Shown: piece after piece, positions 2,920 to 48,411 of the stretch
Layout of the letters: each line of letters starts with the position of its first letter
Position numbering within the stretch: position 1 is the first letter of the stretch
Made by a program: the position numbers and the translations under genes
Notes under the pieces: generated by a model
The model's database searches: none
Seen by the model: the letters and a program-made list of their open reading frames with translations, nothing else
Told to the model about the DNA's origin: nothing
NCBI GenBank assembly: GCA_900316025.1
Contig: ONBJ01000018.1
Coordinates: 1-48,411 of the forward strand
Source: an uncultured Eubacteriales bacterium
Lineage (GTDB): Bacteria > Bacillota > Clostridia > Oscillospirales > Acutalibacteraceae
Reading direction: 5' to 3'
Length of the DNA: 48,411 nucleotides

Positions 2920-3003
2920 ATTTAGGTCAAGCCTTTTTAAAGGCTTGCGGTTTCCAAAGGCAGAGCCTTTGGTGGGATTTTCAAGGGCAAAGCCCTTGAA
3001 CTC
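2920..3003 (+). repeat. Family A modular hairpin element, copy 1
   Basis: Three hairpins in a row. AAGCCTTTTTAAAGGCTT follows the AAATTTAGGTC opening; then CCAAAGGC-AGA-GCCTTTGG; then TTCAAGGGC-AAA-GCCCTTGAA. The order matches the other family A copies at 12221, 18333 and 22419. The right end lies about 11 nt from the ribosome site of the downstream topoisomerase gene, so it would be part of that gene's 5' leader if transcribed from upstream. Confidence 0.85.
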
Positions 3004-6630: not shown

Positions 6631-8022
6631 ATGGATAAGAGGATAGAGAGATTTTTTGAAGGAATGAAAGGCAAAAGGGTAGCCTTCTGCGGTATAGGAA
6701 GAAGCAATCTTCCTCTGATAAAGCTGTTCGGAAAGTACGGTGCAAGCGTAATCGCCTGCGACAGACGAGGCAGAGAGCAGCTTGGTGAAAATGCGGACAT
6801 AGCAGAGCAGTCAGGAGCAGATCTCAGTCTGGGAGAGGATTATCTGAAAAATCTTGATGTTGACATAGTATTAAGAACACCGGGAATGCAGTATTATATG
6901 CCTGAGCTTGTTCAGATGAGAAACAGGGGAGTAGTAGTCACCTCAGAAATGGAGCTGTTTTTTGATTTATGTCCCTGCAAGATATATGCCGTTACGGGAA
7001 GTGACGGAAAAACAACCACCACGTCAATAATATGCGAAATGCTTAAAAAAAGCGGTAAAAAAGTACATCTGGGCGGAAACATAGGAACACCACTGCTTCC
7101 TCTTATAGAAACCATAGATTATGATGACGTTGCAGTTGTTGAGCTTTCCAGCTTTCAGCTTATATCAATGAGAAAATCTCCCGATGTAGCCGTAGTTACA
7201 AATATTGAACCAAATCACCTCGATATACACAAGGATATGGACGAGTACGTTGAAGCAAAAAAGAATATCATTCTTCATCAGGGAGCATTTTCAAAGGTTG
7301 TGCTTAACAGGGATAACAGTATTACCAACGGCTTTGAAAATCAGTGCAGAGGAAGAGTTCTCAAATTTTCGGCAAAAAACAAGGTATTCAACGGAGTTTA
7401 TCTCAGCTACAGCGGAGATATAATCTTTGCGGAAAACGGAATTGAAACAAAGGTTATGAACAAAAGCTGTATAAAAATTCCCGGTATGCACAATGTCGAA
7501 AACTATATGGCTGCCATAGCCGCTGTATGGGGCGACGCTGATATTGAGAATATCGTAAGCGTTGCCGAAAACTTTGAGGGTGTGGAACATCGTGCAGAGT
7601 TTGTGCGTGAGATAGACGGCGTTAAATATTACAATGACTCAATAGCTTCAAGCCCGACAAGAACCGCACGTGGAACGCTTTCGTTGTACGATACCAAAAT
7701 TATACTCATAGCAGGCGGCTATGATAAGAAAATCCCTTACGATTCACTGGGTTCGGTAATAGCTGACAAGGTAAAATATCTTATAATTATGGGTGCTACA
7801 GCTCCCAAAATAAAGGAAGCAGTCCTCAATGCCGAAAATTACAGCGAGGGCAACCCCGTCATAATAGAAGTAAGCAATATGGAAGAGGCTGTCCGTAAGG
7901 CTAAAGAGGTTGCCGTAAGCGGAGATATTGTTTCTATGTCGCCCGCAAGTGCCAGCTTTGACCTTTATAAGAACTTTGACGAGAGAGGAAAGCATTTCAA
8001 AAGTATAGTAAATTCATTATAA
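6631..8022 (+). CDS. murD: UDP-N-acetylmuramoylalanine--D-glutamate ligase
   Basis: Cytoplasmic ATP-dependent ligase that adds D-glutamate to UDP-MurNAc-L-alanine in peptidoglycan precursor synthesis. The N-terminal Rossmann-type domain starts VAFCGIGRSNLPLIKLFGKYGASV. The central Mur ligase domain has the P-loop VTGSDGKTTTTS (Lys127), then HLGGNIGTPLL, VELSSFQL and VTNIEPNHLDIHKDMDEY. The C-terminal domain has EGVEHRAEFVREIDGVKYYNDSIASSPT, which is diagnostic for MurD, and IILIAGGYDKKIPYDSL. At 463 aa it is full length. The gene stands apart from a mur/dcw cluster: upstream is a small unknown gene and downstream a family B repeat and peptidases. Confidence 0.96.
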   Translation: MDKRIERFFEGMKGKRVAFCGIGRSNLPLIKLFGKYGASVIACDRRGREQLGENADIAEQSGADLSLGEDYLKNLDVDIVLRTPGMQYYMPELVQMRNRGVVVTSEMELFFDLCPCKIYAVTGSDGKTTTTSIICEMLKKSGKKVHLGGNIGTPLLPLIETIDYDDVAVVELSSFQLISMRKSPDVAVVTNIEPNHLDIHKDMDEYVEAKKNIILHQGAFSKVVLNRDNSITNGFENQCRGRVLKFSAKNKVFNGVYLSYSGDIIFAENGIETKVMNKSCIKIPGMHNVENYMAAIAAVWGDADIENIVSVAENFEGVEHRAEFVREIDGVKYYNDSIASSPTRTARGTLSLYDTKIILIAGGYDKKIPYDSLGSVIADKVKYLIIMGATAPKIKEAVLNAENYSEGNPVIIEVSNMEEAVRKAKEVAVSGDIVSMSPASASFDLYKNFDERGKHFKSIVNSL

Positions 8023-8041: not shown

Positions 8042-8148
8042 ATGCGGCGATTGCAGGTCAAAAGACATTCGTCTTTTGACTTACAAAGCACGAAGTGCTT
8101 TGTAAAAGCAGGGCAGAGAAATCTGCCCTGCTTCTGCAATCGCCGCAT
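8042..8148. repeat. Family B cloverleaf-like palindromic element, copy 1
   Basis: A perfect 15-bp outer stem (ATGCGGCGATTGCAG at 8042-8056, CTGCAATCGCCGCAT at 8134-8148) encloses exactly three hairpins with little spacer: GTCAAAAGAC/GTCTTTTGAC, TTACAAAGCAC/GTGCTTTGTAA and AAGCAGGGCAGA/TCTGCCCTGCTT. A GAGCGAAGCCGCAG trailer follows. It lies between murD and the first M42 gene and contains no gene. Confidence 0.9.
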
Positions 8149-8199
8149 GAGCGAAGCCGCAGATTTTCGGATAATTCATAATAAAAAGGGGCTGATATT

Positions 8200-9222
8200 T
8201 TGGAAAAACTGCTTACGGAATTATGCAGCAAATATACCGTATCAGGAAGTGAGCTTGAAAATCTGGAGCTTATAAGGAGCTTCTTTGATAAAGATACGGA
8301 TATAAGGACTGATGCAAACGGAAATATTATCGCAAGCATAGGCAGAACCGACAGTAAAGATGTAATAATGCTTGAAGCACATAACGATACAATAGGCTTT
8401 GTGGTTACGTTTATAGACGAAAACGGCTTTTTAAAGCTTTCAAACTGCGGAGGAACAGACAGAAGAGTTCTTCCGGGAAGCAGGGTGAACGTACTTGGCA
8501 AAAAGCATATAAGAGGTATAGTATGCTGTCTGCCGCCGCATCTTTCGGACGGAGGAGAGGATAAAGCTCCCGATGCTGACGGAATATATGTTGACACGGG
8601 TCTTGCAAAATCGGAGCTTGAAAAATATGTATCCGCAGGTGACAAGGTTGCAGTGTATTCAAAGCCCGAAAAGCTTATCGGAAAAAGATTTAAAGCGGCA
8701 GGTCTTGACAATAAGGCAGGAGTTGCGGTTCTTATAAGAGCGGCACAGCTTATTAAAAAACAAAAAACAGACATCTGCATAAAGATAGTTTTAAGCAGTC
8801 AGGAAGAAACAGGACTGGTCGGAAGCAGAACGGCAGGATTTTCAGTAAAACCCGACTGTGCGTTGGTGGTAGATGTAAGCTTTGCAAAACAGGCGTGTGT
8901 ATCAGAGGAAAAAAGCGGAAAGCTTTCCAAAGGAGCTATGCTGGGACTTTCACCTATACTTGACAGAGGACTTTACAGGGAGCTTGAAGAAATCTGTATA
9001 AAAAACAGCATACCTTATCAGAAAGAGATTATGGGAGGCTCTACAGGGACAAATGCAGACGTAATAAGCACAGCAGGCGAAGGAGTAAGAACTGCACTTG
9101 TAAGTATTCCGCTGAGAAATATGCACACACAGGCTGAAACAGTTGATATTGACGATTTGGAAAATACAGCAAAACTTATTTCCTTGTTTATAGAAAGCAG
9201 AGGTGCAGATGCAAATGGATAA
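8200..9222 (+). CDS. M42 family metallo-aminopeptidase
   Basis: Probable cytosolic dinuclear-metal aminopeptidase (glutamyl aminopeptidase/TET type) that trims peptides. Metal and catalytic residues are in place: EAHND (His61, Asp63), GLDNKAGVAV (Asp170), SSQEETGLVGS (catalytic Glu202, ligand Glu203), VVDVS (Asp225) and NMHTQAETVD (His309). In most relatives the first motif reads AHxDEIG, whereas here it is AHNDTIG, so the residue after the catalytic Asp differs. The start is TTG at 8200 behind AAAAGGGG. It overlaps the next M42 gene by a few codons, so the two are made from one message and may form mixed shells or divide substrates (inference). Confidence 0.9.
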   Translation: MEKLLTELCSKYTVSGSELENLELIRSFFDKDTDIRTDANGNIIASIGRTDSKDVIMLEAHNDTIGFVVTFIDENGFLKLSNCGGTDRRVLPGSRVNVLGKKHIRGIVCCLPPHLSDGGEDKAPDADGIYVDTGLAKSELEKYVSAGDKVAVYSKPEKLIGKRFKAAGLDNKAGVAVLIRAAQLIKKQKTDICIKIVLSSQEETGLVGSRTAGFSVKPDCALVVDVSFAKQACVSEEKSGKLSKGAMLGLSPILDRGLYRELEEICIKNSIPYQKEIMGGSTGTNADVISTAGEGVRTALVSIPLRNMHTQAETVDIDDLENTAKLISLFIESRGADANG

Positions 9223-12220: not shown

Positions 12221-12305
12221 AAGTTTAGGTCAAGCCTTTTCAAAGGCCTGCGGTTTCCAAAGGCGGAGCCTTTGGTCAGGATTTTTAAGGGTGAAACCCT
12301 TAAAC
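12221..12305 (+). repeat. Family A modular hairpin element, copy 2
   Basis: AAAGTTTAGGTCAAGCCTTTTCAAAGGCCT opens the element, followed by CCAAAGGC-GGA-GCCTTTGG and TTTAAGGGT-GAA-ACCCTTAAA. It ends about 28 nt before the ElaA-type gene's start and so may lie in its leader. Confidence 0.85.
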
Positions 12306-13359: not shown

Positions 13360-13463
13360 GCTGCGGCGGCAGACTTCGGCAGACAAAGTCTGCCGATAAA
13401 TTTCAAGCATAAATGCTTGAAATTCGTCAAAAGCCTTAGCTTTTGACGGTCTGCCGCCGCAGC
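13360..13463. repeat. Family B cloverleaf-like palindromic element, copy 2
   Basis: Outer stem GCTGCGGCGGCAGAC (13360-13374) with GTCTGCCGCCGCAGC (13449-13463), 15 bp and perfect, though its sequence differs from other copies in the ATTG core. It encloses three hairpins: TCGGCAGAC/GTCTGCCGA, AATTTCAAGCAT/ATGCTTGAAATT and CGTCAAAAGC/GCTTTTGACG. Confidence 0.88.
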
Positions 13464-18287: not shown

Positions 18288-18332
18288 GCAAAAACGCCGT
18301 TTCACGGCATTTTTGATTTTTTATTATTTGTT

Positions 18333-18437
18333 AAAGGGTTTCACCCTTTAAAATCCTGACCAAAGGCTCCGCCTTTGGAAACCGCAAGGGCTCTGCCCTT
18401 GACCCGCAAGCCTTTAAAAAGGCTTGACCTAAACTTT
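18333..18437 (-). repeat. Family A modular hairpin element, copy 3 (reverse orientation)
   Basis: Read on the minus strand it has the AAAGTTTAGGTCAAGCCTTTTTAAAGGCTT opening, then CAAGGGC-AGA-GCCCTTG, CCAAAGGC-GGA-GCCTTTGG and TTTAAAGGGT-GAA-ACCCTTTAA. It is a four-hairpin version with the same module order as copy 4. Its opening AAAGTTT overlaps the stop codon of tadA. Confidence 0.88.
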
Positions 18438-22418: not shown

Positions 22419-22521
22419 GTTTAGGTCAAGCCTTTTCAAAGGCTTGCGGGTCAAGGGCAGAGCCCTTGCGGTTTCCAAAGGCGGAGCCTTTGGTGGGATT
22501 TTTAAGGGTGAAACCCTTAAA
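22419..22521 (+). repeat. Family A modular hairpin element, copy 4
   Basis: AAAGTTTAGGTCAAGCCTTTTCAAAGGCTT, then CAAGGGC-AGA-GCCCTTG, CCAAAGGC-GGA-GCCTTTGG and TTTAAGGGT-GAA-ACCCTTAAA. The module order equals that of copy 3. Its right end touches the stop codon of the convergent protease gene. Confidence 0.88.
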
Positions 22522-31209: not shown

Positions 31210-31336
31210 GGATTTTGGTGAGTTTAAGGGCTTTGCCCTTAAAAATCCCACAAGTGGCTTTGCCCCTTGACCCCACCACTTTTGAAAAAGCGGACAAAAC
31301 TTTTAATTGTCATAGCCATACGATGAGAAAATCATT
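31210..31336 (-). repeat. Right arm of the luxS-bracketing inverted repeat (contains family A copy 6)
   Basis: On the minus strand, bases 31336-31256 repeat the left arm, then the element continues with a further hairpin, TTTAAGGGC-AAA-GCCCTTAAA (about 31212-31234), that the left copy lacks. The outer end of the arm (31335-31336) forms part of the stop codon of the convergent HipA-like gene. Confidence 0.87.
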
Positions 31337-40808: not shown

Positions 40809-40916
40809 GTGCGGCGATTGCAGACCGTTTCGGACAAAAGTCCGAAACGAAATTTCAAGCATTTGCTTGAAATTTGTAAAAAGCATTTTATGCTTTTACG
40901 TCTGCAATCGCCGCAC
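40809..40916. repeat. Family B cloverleaf-like palindromic element, copy 3
   Basis: Outer stem of 17 bp, GTGCGGCGATTGCAGAC (40809-40825) with GTCTGCAATCGCCGCAC (40900-40916). It encloses CGTTTCGGAC/GTCCGAAACG, AAATTTCAAGCA/TGCTTGAAATTT and GTAAAAAGCAT/ATGCTTTTAC (one base unpaired). It lies just downstream of both the yihY-type gene and the convergent PHP gene. Confidence 0.9.
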
Positions 40917-41839: not shown

Positions 41840-41933
41840 GCGATTGCAGACATAAAAAGCGTAAGCTTTTTACAGATTTCAAGGTATACCTTGAAATCTC
41901 ACGGCGGCATATGCCGCCGTGGTCTGCAATCGC
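41840..41933. repeat. Family B cloverleaf-like palindromic element, copy 4
   Basis: Outer stem GCGATTGCAGAC (41840-41851) with GTCTGCAATCGC (41922-41933). Inside are TAAAAAGC/GCTTTTTA, AGATTTCAAGGTATACCTTGAAATCT (an uninterrupted palindrome) and CACGGCGGCATATGCCGCCGTG (also uninterrupted). The trailer AGCTTCAGCTAAGCTGAAAG is itself hairpin-forming. Confidence 0.9.
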
Positions 41934-46634: not shown

Positions 46635-46817
46635 TTCTGTTCCTCCTTTATAGTATTAATTTCAGCCGTTTTCAGCCGTTGTTATGATTATAACACACAC
46701 ATTATCCCGATTACCATATCAACATCAATATTTTTATCCTGAAAAATATACAACAGGTTCTATAAAGGGTAAGTTGTCCATATATATTATCAGGAAGAAG
46801 CAAAGGAGGAATAAAGC

Positions 46818-47873
46818 TTGTATGGAATAAATAAAAAATATGACGAAAGCTTTGTAAGACGTTTTGATATGTGTGCCTGCGGACTTGGCAGGAGCTTGTC
46901 AAGGATACTTCTGAACGTACCCGAAGATGTCAGGTACAGGACGCAGGAGATACAGATACGCAGAGGAAAGCCGCTTGTGCTTTACTGCGGCGATGAAAGC
47001 TTTTTTGTAAAGGACAGCGGAGCGGCTGTAAAATATGCTTCCGATGATATTGTGAGGATATCGGAGGAGGATATTGACGAATGCTTTCAGAGTATATGCA
47101 GGTATTCCGTATATACAAGGCAGGACGAGATAAAAAACGGCTTTGTTACTATGAAAGGAGGTCATCGTGCAGGAATATGCGGAACGGCTGTATATGAAAA
47201 TAACAGTATGACGGGAGTAAGAAACATATCTTCGATAAACGTGAGAATATCAAAGGAAGTAAGGGGAATATCACGGGAGTTTTTCAGGCTTGCGGGAAGT
47301 ACTCTGAAAGGTACGCTCATATGCGGTGTGCCGTGCAGCGGAAAAACTACTTTACTGCGTGATATAGCAAGGGTAATCTCACTTGAAAAGGGACTGAAAG
47401 TCAGCATTATTGACGAAAGGGGAGAGCTGGGCGGAGGTCTTGGCGGCGAGCTTTGCAACGATACAGGCTTCTGCGATGTTTTCAGCGGCTACAGAAAAGC
47501 CGACGGTATGATGCAGGCTGTAAGATGTATGTCGCCTGATGTCATAATATGCGATGAGATAGGCAGTGAAGAGGAGGCATACTGTGTATCGGAGGCTCTC
47601 AACAGCGGCGTAACCGTTATAGCATCGGTACACTGCTCAGATGTGAAGGAATTTCTTAAAAAGCCGCAGACGCTCCGCCTTGCCAATACTTCCGCCTTTG
47701 AATGTGCTGTGTTCTTATCCGACAGAAGGCATATCGGAAAAATATGCAGTACCGTAAAAATCAAGGAGCTGATGAATTGTGAAAATAACAGGCTGTATAC
47801 TGATAATACTGAGTACGACAGCGGCAGGCTTCTATATGTCGCTGAGGGCAAAGAAAAGAATACGGCTGTTTGA
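46818..47873 (+). CDS. spoIIIAA: Stage III sporulation protein AA
   Basis: ATPase of the SpoIIIA-SpoIIQ feeding channel between mother cell and forespore, related to secretion ATPases. EDVRYRTQEIQIRRGKPLVLY, EEDIDECFQSICRYSVYTRQDEIKNGFVTMKGGHRAGICGTAVYE and VRNISSINVRISKEVRG are family blocks. Walker A is GVPCSGKTTLLRDIAR, and VIICDEIGSEEEAYCVSEALNSGVTVIASVH contains Walker B. At 351 aa it is longer than usual; about 32 C-terminal residues overlap the spoIIIAB frame. Start is TTG behind AAAGGAGGAAT with ideal spacing. It heads the spoIIIA operon; the later genes lie beyond the window. Confidence 0.95.
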   Translation: MYGINKKYDESFVRRFDMCACGLGRSLSRILLNVPEDVRYRTQEIQIRRGKPLVLYCGDESFFVKDSGAAVKYASDDIVRISEEDIDECFQSICRYSVYTRQDEIKNGFVTMKGGHRAGICGTAVYENNSMTGVRNISSINVRISKEVRGISREFFRLAGSTLKGTLICGVPCSGKTTLLRDIARVISLEKGLKVSIIDERGELGGGLGGELCNDTGFCDVFSGYRKADGMMQAVRCMSPDVIICDEIGSEEEAYCVSEALNSGVTVIASVHCSDVKEFLKKPQTLRLANTSAFECAVFLSDRRHIGKICSTVKIKELMNCENNRLYTDNTEYDSGRLLYVAEGKEKNTAV

Positions 47874-48279
47874 GGGTCTTGCTTTATTCGCAGGAGGAAT
47901 TTCGTCTTCCATAAGATACAGTGCGGCAGATATATCAACACTTCTCAGACTGGAAAACAGAGAGGTTCATATAGAATTTATTGACAGGGTATCCGATATG
48001 CTTGAAAACGGCGGCAGCCTCAGGGATAGCTGGAGCAGAGCCGTTTCCGAAATATCAGCTTATTCGGGTATAACTGCGGAGGACAGGGATATTATTATTC
48101 AGTTCGGAAGCAAGCTCGGAGCTACCGATGTTATCGGACAAACCGAACACTGCGATTATTTCAGGCAAAAATTTTTGCTCAGGGCTGAAAAGCTTGAAAA
48201 GGAGTATGATTCCAAAGCTAAGCTGTACCGTTCCCTTGGATTTTTCAGCGGACTTTCGGCGGCAGTTGTTCTTATATAG
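47779..48279 (+). CDS. spoIIIAB: Stage III sporulation protein AB
   Basis: Membrane component of the spoIIIA-encoded channel, 166 aa, with distant likeness to type II secretion F proteins. The N-terminal membrane segment ITGCILIILSTTAAGFYMSL is followed by RIRLFEGLALFAGGISSSIRYSAADISTLL, GGSLRDSWSRAVSEIS, FGSKLGATDVIGQTEHCDYF and KLYRSLGFFSGLSAAVVLI, all typical of SpoIIIAB. GTG 47779 lies 95 nt before the spoIIIAA stop, a long overlap; the next ATG (47836) would remove the membrane segment. The gene is complete and is followed by a family B element, where spoIIIAC would be expected. Confidence 0.92.
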   Translation: MKITGCILIILSTTAAGFYMSLRAKKRIRLFEGLALFAGGISSSIRYSAADISTLLRLENREVHIEFIDRVSDMLENGGSLRDSWSRAVSEISAYSGITAEDRDIIIQFGSKLGATDVIGQTEHCDYFRQKFLLRAEKLEKEYDSKAKLYRSLGFFSGLSAAVVLI

Positions 48280-48300
48280 CTCAGACCTTCTGCGTGACAG

Positions 48301-48386
48301 GCGATTGCAGACCACGGCATTCGCCGTGAATTTAAAGCGGAGCTTTAAATTGGTCAAAAGCGAAGCTTTTGACCGTCTGCAATCGC
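48301..48386. repeat. Family B cloverleaf-like palindromic element, copy 5
   Basis: Outer stem GCGATTGCAGAC (48301-48312) with GTCTGCAATCGC (48375-48386). Three inner hairpins: CACGGC/GCCGTG, AATTTAAAGC/GCTTTAAATT and GGTCAAAAGC/GCTTTTGACC. The trailer AGCGTGAGCGAAGC matches that of copy 1. It lies 21 nt after spoIIIAB. Confidence 0.9.
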
Positions 48387-48411
48387 AGCGTGAGCGAAGC
48401 TGAAACTAAAA

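Follow-up and report, generated by a model that had tools for sequence, protein, structure and literature searches.

The DNA analysed here is a stretch of 48,411 nucleotides (the window) from a bacterium of a rumen-type lineage and contains five intergenic copies of a repeat able to fold into a cloverleaf. Copy 1 is flanked by two ORFs of the same strand (6631-8022 and 8200-9222), and copy 3 sits between convergent ORFs. In the list below, a, b and c denote the three inner hairpins.

8042-8148, plus strand: copy 1; outer stem 8042-8056 / 8134-8148; a 8057-8080, b 8081-8105, c 8106-8133
8149-8162, plus strand: flank motif of copy 1, GAGCGAAGCCGCAG, on the c side; cassette in flipped orientation compared to most copies
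13360-13463, minus strand: copy 2; outer stem 13360-13374 / 13449-13463; c 13376-13396, b 13399-13424, a 13425-13448
40809-40916, minus strand: copy 3; outer stem 40809-40825 / 40900-40916; c 40826-40849, b 40850-40875, a about 40876-40899
41840-41933, plus strand: copy 4; outer stem 41840-41851 / 41922-41933; a 41853-41872, b 41874-41899, c 41900-41921
48301-48386, minus strand: copy 5; outer stem 48301-48312 / 48375-48386; c 48313-48328, b 48329-48351, a 48352-48374
48392-48400, plus strand: flank motif of copy 5, GAGCGAAGC, on the a side

A preliminary description had placed five copies, each with an outer stem and exactly three hairpins, at these positions, and all of them were found. The outer stem measures 12-17 bp and always encloses three hairpins. 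The DNA folding z-scores of copies 1 to 5 are -13.7, -13.8, -13.8, -11.7, and -10.1, with none of 200 shuffles as good in any of them. A sequence-independent detector, which asks for an outer stem that pairs perfectly over at least 8 bp and an interior tiled by hairpins, recovered these five copies from the window and nothing else; 400 kb of G004, a genome from the same genus, and one base-shuffle (in 200-nt blocks) of these 400 kb gave no match. The sequence details of the preliminary description held in part. The stem core attributed to four copies is complete (CGATTGCAGAC/GTCTGCAATCG) in three of the five, while copy 1 has just CGATTGCAG; the stem of copy 2 is the variant GCTGCGGCGGCAGAC. 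The hairpin attributed to three copies, GTCAAAAGC, is exact in two (13360 and 48301) and reads GTCAAAAGAC in copy 1, and AATTTCAAGCAT is present in both copies named for it, with a right arm that deviates at the loop in the copy at 40809. The GAGCGAAGC-like trailer is genuine, recurring beside the element across the genome.

At gathering thresholds, the Rfam matches of the window were RNase P and four tRNAs and no others; the element was left unmatched, in line with the preliminary description. The window also contains a second hairpin family (2928-3000, 12257-12304, 18331-18426, 22427-22521, and 31223-31243) made of tandem short hairpins (CAAGCCTTT.., CCAAAGGC.., TTTAAGGG..) with alike linkers and no obvious enclosing stem. 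An array resembling it was also seen in the same-genus genome G001 (L270 4283-4366).

Size and Anatomy of the Repeat Family

To describe the family as a whole, we refer to the genome of the window as G000; G001 to G005 belong to the same genus, G005 being a carrier from a sister species, and G119 and G073 belong to other genera. In 430.5 kb of G000 the detector found 51 copies, of which 49 contain three hairpins and two contain two. For G005, 727.5 kb gave 92 copies (90 with three hairpins and one each with two and four), so that 139 of the 143 detected copies have exactly three. The two 2-hairpin matches of G000, on contig C53, were judged to be other hairpins; they are within the 51 and were kept out of the ortholog counts. 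The density is about 114-126 copies per Mb in both genomes, which extrapolates to roughly 240 copies in the 2.08 Mb genome of G000. Since the detector needs perfect arms in G000, it misses imperfect copies such as C53:46296. Exact pairs of the stem pattern occur 52 times in G000, 61 times in G005, and not at all in 58 other relatives. A covariance model gave at least 150 matches in G000 (some of them on both strands), 148 in G005, one in G003 (a 7%-contaminated genome), and none in G001, G002, and G004. The detector and the covariance model both put the copy number well above ten, and with the near-fixed outer stem, the three hairpins and the paired changes reported below they bear out the proposal of a dispersed family.

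Anatomy was assessed in 172 three-hairpin copies (82 from G000, 90 from G005); an a-b-c orientation could be assigned to 163 of them. The part inside the stem measures 72 +/- 4 nt, the outer stem is mostly 11-15 bp long, and 74 of the 172 copies have no unpaired nucleotide at the hairpin junctions. The arms of class a are of the TCAAAAGC type (CAAAA type), class b is an AT-rich middle hairpin, and class c is GC-rich; the mean GC contents of a, b and c are 0.37, 0.35, and 0.57. The inner hairpins had been regarded as re-used modules. They fall instead into position-specific classes (b is the middle one), and the types of a and c are statistically linked (chi-square p 1e-14, a value inflated by the non-independence of sister copies); on account of this linkage we reject free shuffling of hairpin modules. 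In the 33 copies behind the first model, all 12 outer-stem pairs are invariant, in a set drawn from copies found through the stem sequence. In this set, changes on both sides affect 4 of 9 pairs in hairpin a, 11 of 11 in b, and 9 of 10 in c, and the covariation score is 0.320, compared to 0.122 after shuffling and at most 0.101 after sliding. Other copies carry stem variants that still pair: GCGATTGCAGCC (11 copies), GGCGATTTCA, and GGCGGCAGAC (the copy at 13360). We also noted derivatives at L085 about 7371-7417 (G000 C65:7870-7916) and L193 2959-3027, in which the stem holds hairpin a alone, or a and c alone; these are apparently internal losses.

Outside the stem lies TGCGGCTTCGCTCAGGCT, the GAGCGAAGC trailer on the opposite strand. 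The 12-base core of this motif (best of five forms) is matched at 10 or more of its 12 positions in 81 of the 172 copies. Of the 75 copies that can be scored, i.e., those with the motif on one side only and an orientable cassette, 62 carry it next to hairpin a and 13 next to hairpin c (p 8e-9), and this split fits recurrent flips of the cassette. All 19 exact matches to two motif forms are located within 60 nt of an element, in DNA that was partly fetched around elements. GCCGCA was seen on the opposite side in only three of 28 copies with the strict motif form. The stem arms, although perfect, are internal to the element: since AT-rich composition begins about 21 nt beyond both stem ends, the unit extends that much further on each side and measures about 138 bp.

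Shared Sites in the Sister Species

By their flanks, 33 of 84 G000 copies could be assigned to places in stretches of G005, and two of these were left out as non-element hairpins. The element is present at 29 of the remaining 31 sites (27 intact, two diverged); at one, copy 4 of the window, a left-arm remnant is all that is found in G005, and at one it is absent. In the reverse direction, 32 of 92 G005 copies were placed in G000, with 29 present (27 intact, two with mismatches) and three absent. In each direction the 27 intact copies were called by the detector and the two further ones were read from the printed sequence. Sharing at this level indicates that most of the family predates the split of G000 and G005, whose flanks diverge by 10.7%, with some later gain or loss. 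Such differences in presence between sisters support the preliminary description. Copy 5 has an identical element at the same site in G005. The part of the window from 46742 to 48411 is 99% identical to G005, compared to 84-88% in nearby blocks, and was likely exchanged recently.

Four sites could be placed in G004. All of them are devoid of the element and shorter than in G000, by 65, 83, 133 (the site of copy 4), and 145 nt. We found neither a target-site duplication nor a clean empty site: the four presence/absence cases between G000 and G005, with size differences of 130-182 nt, lie in diverged intergenic DNA and have no readable junction.

Paired Changes, Cassette Inversion and Apparent Conversion

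The 29 ortholog pairs comprise 1243 base pairs, of which 1140 are unchanged and 44 carry a single change; 52 double changes keep pairing and seven do not. When the pair with apparent conversion (see below) is omitted, 43 pairing doubles remain among 1200 base pairs, and the doubles of either kind number 50, compared to 4.3 expected if the two sides changed independently. Transitions and transversions among the pairing doubles are 24 and 28, compared to 2270 and 1508 in the flanks (p 0.046); without the converted pair, but with its converted neighbour (three doubles) retained, the deficit of transitions is no longer significant (21:22, p 0.16). The safe statement is that the doubles show no transition excess. 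The single changes yield G-T in five, A-C in 13, and other mismatches in 26 cases. Since the strand was not set by transcription, G-T alone cannot be interpreted and was pooled with A-C (18 of 44). Neither the double nor the single changes look like selection on RNA pairing via G-U intermediates.

At two of the 29 ortholog sites, copy 2 of the window and L065, the whole cassette is inverted in one species relative to the other, with the outer stem and the neighbouring flanks kept; the identity of the inner parts is 0.53 in direct and 0.80 and 0.93 in inverted alignment. Furthermore, two G005 copies located 5.8 kb apart have cores that are 98% identical and different flanks, and their G000 orthologs differ from each other. 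This one pair of alike neighbours is best read as apparent gene conversion. Inversion of single loops, an outcome that strand switching predicts, was convincing by eye and is not claimed: among 60 changed loops, eight are the exact reverse complement of their counterpart, compared to 5.5 +/- 1.5 in permutations respecting closing pairs and length, 442 of 5000 of which reached as high a value.

It had been argued that paired changes demonstrate a structure under selection. This does not follow, because strand switching or gene conversion can change both arms in one step, and the inverted cassettes and alike neighbours are traces of just these processes. Template switching has been described to homogenise arms and to invert the spacer between them (PMC8604942), and as a source of one-step compensatory changes (PMC8794818).

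Discussion

We regard the element as a structurally new form of dispersed extragenic palindrome with the shape of a cloverleaf. Cassette inversions, apparent homogenisation, the random order of the cassette along transcription (see below) and the lack of a transition excess point to an element that is apparently kept and flipped at the DNA level rather than to a selected RNA. The account we favour, and consider probable, is that of a non-coding, REP- or MITE-like dispersed DNA element whose copies mostly stay where they were inherited and are reshaped by strand switching and conversion. It consists of about 138 bp with a conserved motif on one side and a near-constant 12-bp inverted repeat, between whose arms lie three perfect hairpins of fixed class, and each of its single strands can fold into the cloverleaf. 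Its spread in the ancestor of the two sister species, to which the shared sites attest, would have depended on a trans-acting machinery, and its copies would since have been mostly inherited in place. Folding of a strand at replication may let the polymerase switch between the arms, which would restore perfect pairing of both arms at once and could invert the enclosed cassette; neighbouring copies may also overwrite each other by gene conversion. We infer this replication mechanism from the paired changes, the inversions and published template switching. Strand switching by itself would leave the outer stem less constant than it is, and the Y1_Tnp profile yielded no candidate transposase in the three carriers described below.

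A second possibility, which we hold tentatively, is a mobile DNA defined by its shape: the single-stranded cloverleaf would be recognised, the letters would turn over, the interior would flip in the manner of parvoviral terminal repeats, and lineages without SbcCD would be settled. It draws on large populations in two genera with mostly different letters and on a third genus with at least one cloverleaf. Among 300 genomes of the family, the first model (E 1e-4) matched three: G000, G005, and G119, a genome of another genus with three matches (best E 1.1e-9). Among 394 genomes of the order it matched G000 alone, G005 and G119 evidently not being in that sample. With an 8-bp stem, the detector gave 49 matches in 336 kb of G119 (about 146 per Mb), 44 of them with exactly three hairpins; with a 6-bp stem it gave 81, some AT-rich and chance-like, and none after shuffling. 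The letters in G119 are mostly other ones, with stems like GGCGGCAAGCCC and hairpins CCAAAAAC, GCAAAAGC (middle), and AAAGCCC. The stretches L250-L269 of G119 apparently contain two sub-families, with stems of the GGCGGCAAGCCC and the GCGGCGGTTTT type. Of 398 genomes searched with a model derived from G119, strong matches came only from G119 itself; G000 gave one match and G073 a weak one (3.6e-5). The G000 match is a cloverleaf with an imperfect stem that the detector had missed (z -12.5); that of G073 (L296 about 1501-1610, contig C56) is a cloverleaf in which an 11-bp stem encloses three hairpins (z -8.6). Given the cross-match of the models, the elements of G119 and of G000/G005 may be distantly related.

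In 20 other genomes, three of the same genus, with 3-20 kb inspected in each, looser settings gave two matches, neither of which is such an element. A pattern scan of genome contigs returned 68 stretches, 54 of them from G005; the 14 stretches from other organisms, and two of four viral ones, had no cloverleaf by the detector, 6-bp stem included. The viral contigs L158 (3032, 7661, and 11215) and L159 (2919, 7556, and 11131) each have three copies, and these sit at corresponding positions among ORFs that by eye resemble terminase, portal, and capsid genes, in a cluster of phage structural genes. L158 matches a G000 locus at 99.9% identity over 1409 nt, and L159 does so at about 87%. Phage and plasmid records, queried with one element per collection, contained no homologue.

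Loss of the hairpin nuclease SbcCD may have let the element accumulate in its carriers. SbcCD cuts hairpins in Escherichia coli (PMC3315005), and its minimum stem is given as between 8 and 16 bp (PMC3733652), a range that covers the 10-12 bp helices of the element. We scored SbcCD in 24 genomes, of which the 17 other-genus non-carriers were checked for cloverleaves of other sequence in 3-20 kb each. No SbcD match above the cut-off was obtained in G000, G005, or G119, whereas G001 to G004 and six of these 17 presumed non-carriers have one; strong SbcC matches show the same pattern. SbcCD is missing in 11 of 21 non-carriers, and its loss is therefore not sufficient. The tie between loss and carriage is a correlation that is suggestive without reaching significance (p 0.18 for all genomes scored, 0.067 for the genus). 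Both flanks of sbcDC in G004 match G000 and G005 on separate contigs, and the sbcDC stretch itself is unmatched. Long hairpins outside the elements are more numerous in the carriers than in G004; those with arms of 10-12 bp are not more numerous in G000 and G005 than in a mixed sample of 17 genera.

The cloverleaf could also be selected as a folded RNA, i.e., as a stabiliser or processing signal in 3' untranslated regions, as proposed for REP/BIME sequences in mRNA, and the genomic setting speaks in part for this. Among gaps of at least 50 nt, 422 co-directional ones contain 106 elements, 66 convergent ones 17, and 77 divergent ones eight, a depletion of divergent gaps compared to the 123 elements in 488 others (p 0.003; elements treated as gaps) that rests on home-made gene calls and may include the two non-element detector matches. 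One further G000 copy lies inside a called ORF. In co-directional gaps the median distance is 41 and 37 nt to the upstream stop and 64 and 67 nt to the downstream start, and family-wide covariation is strong. Avoidance of promoters is, however, expected of any insertion, and the order of the cassette along transcription is random (a first in 48, c first in 52). Together with the patterns of double and single changes and with the lack of an Rfam match, this makes the RNA reading offered in the preliminary description unlikely.

We judge it similarly doubtful that the repeat is a REP-type element once moved, as a single-stranded hairpin, by a Y1 (RAYT/IS200-type) transposase that has since been lost. 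Its hairpin architecture with an asymmetric foot motif and its intergenic distribution would suit such an origin, and stop-containing Y1 matches persist in two element-free genomes of the same genus, G001 (C12:31607-31942) and G002 (C241:1451-1585), with one to three in-frame stops. The preliminary description had invoked such an enzyme acting in trans; as stated, this finds no support, since the Pfam profile Y1_Tnp (PF01797) has no match in G000, the sister G005, or the other-genus carrier G119, i.e., in carriers of two genera, compared to matches in five of 14 control genomes. The flank consensus also lacks a conserved GTAG/CGTC tag, and, compared to REPs as published, the core is two to five times as large.

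It is improbable that the cloverleaf is selected as a binding or organising site for a nucleoid protein or an attC-type recombinase. The outer stem is constant, the hairpin classes are fixed, and the number of arms is almost always three in two sets of sequences that largely differ; attC sites also work as folded single strands. Its patchy distribution and the gains and losses between sister species are nevertheless unlike an essential site, and no partner protein was identified. Bidirectional intrinsic terminators enlarged by nested palindromes were dropped as a very improbable reading: stable GC-containing hairpins do lie downstream of genes and an AT-rich stretch does begin about 21 nt outside the stem, but T-tracts after the hairpin are not enriched, runs of at least five T within 45 nt occurring on 43 and 32 of 172 sides and on both sides in eight of 172 copies, compared to a fraction of 0.29 among 2430 intergenic 45-mers.

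Compensatory changes are usually taken as the mark of a functional RNA. In the element discussed here, paired changes, inversion, and apparent conversion occur at sites shared by sister species without the signatures of an RNA, which makes the family a natural system in which to study template switching at nested bacterial palindromes. If it is true that the cloverleaf shape spreads and that loss of SbcCD permits it, a testable rule for where palindromic DNA accumulates would result.

Comparison With Known Systems

No description of a bacterial three-hairpin cloverleaf repeat was found among the titles and first parts of abstracts listed by searches of openly accessible literature, which is not proof of absence. 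REP, BIME, and REPIN sequences with their RAYT transposases are likewise extragenic palindromes of high copy number that can fold as single strands (PMC3116915, PMC3733652; see also PMC2817692), and they too are described as lying mostly between co-directional and convergent genes. REPs are described as hairpins of 20-40 nt or pairs of these, whereas the element is a nested cloverleaf with a core of about 96 nt, three hairpins, and a unit of about 138 nt. Unlike REP/REPIN-RAYT systems, its carriers have no Y1 match, and its consensus near CTGCGGCTTCGCTCAGGCT is free of the GTAG/CGTC foot tag, CGTC being seen only in variants like CGTCAACGCTCAGG. The stem-loop families of Cozzuto et al. (2008) are also repeated intergenic sequences with a common fold; the terms cloverleaf, branched, Y-shaped, and cruciform do not appear in the main text of that report (PMC2267715). 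Double-hairpin elements of fungal mitochondria are, as far as their descriptions go, similarly small mobile hairpin units. They consist of two hairpins, are organellar, and are not known to have an enclosing stem.

Bacterial MITEs, the subject of a review (PMC10969869), share with the element that they are short, non-coding, repeated, and intergenic, have inverted-repeat arms, and are present or absent between sisters. In contrast to MITEs, no target duplication was found for the element, a parent transposase was not noticed in the copies examined, and its interior is a set of hairpins. In the inverted terminal repeats of parvoviruses (AAV), an outer stem surrounds small hairpins and the interior occurs in two orientations (flip and flop). 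The element, by comparison, is chromosomal and interspersed, has three inner hairpins and no known replication protein, so that its similarity to the AAV repeats is one of behaviour only.
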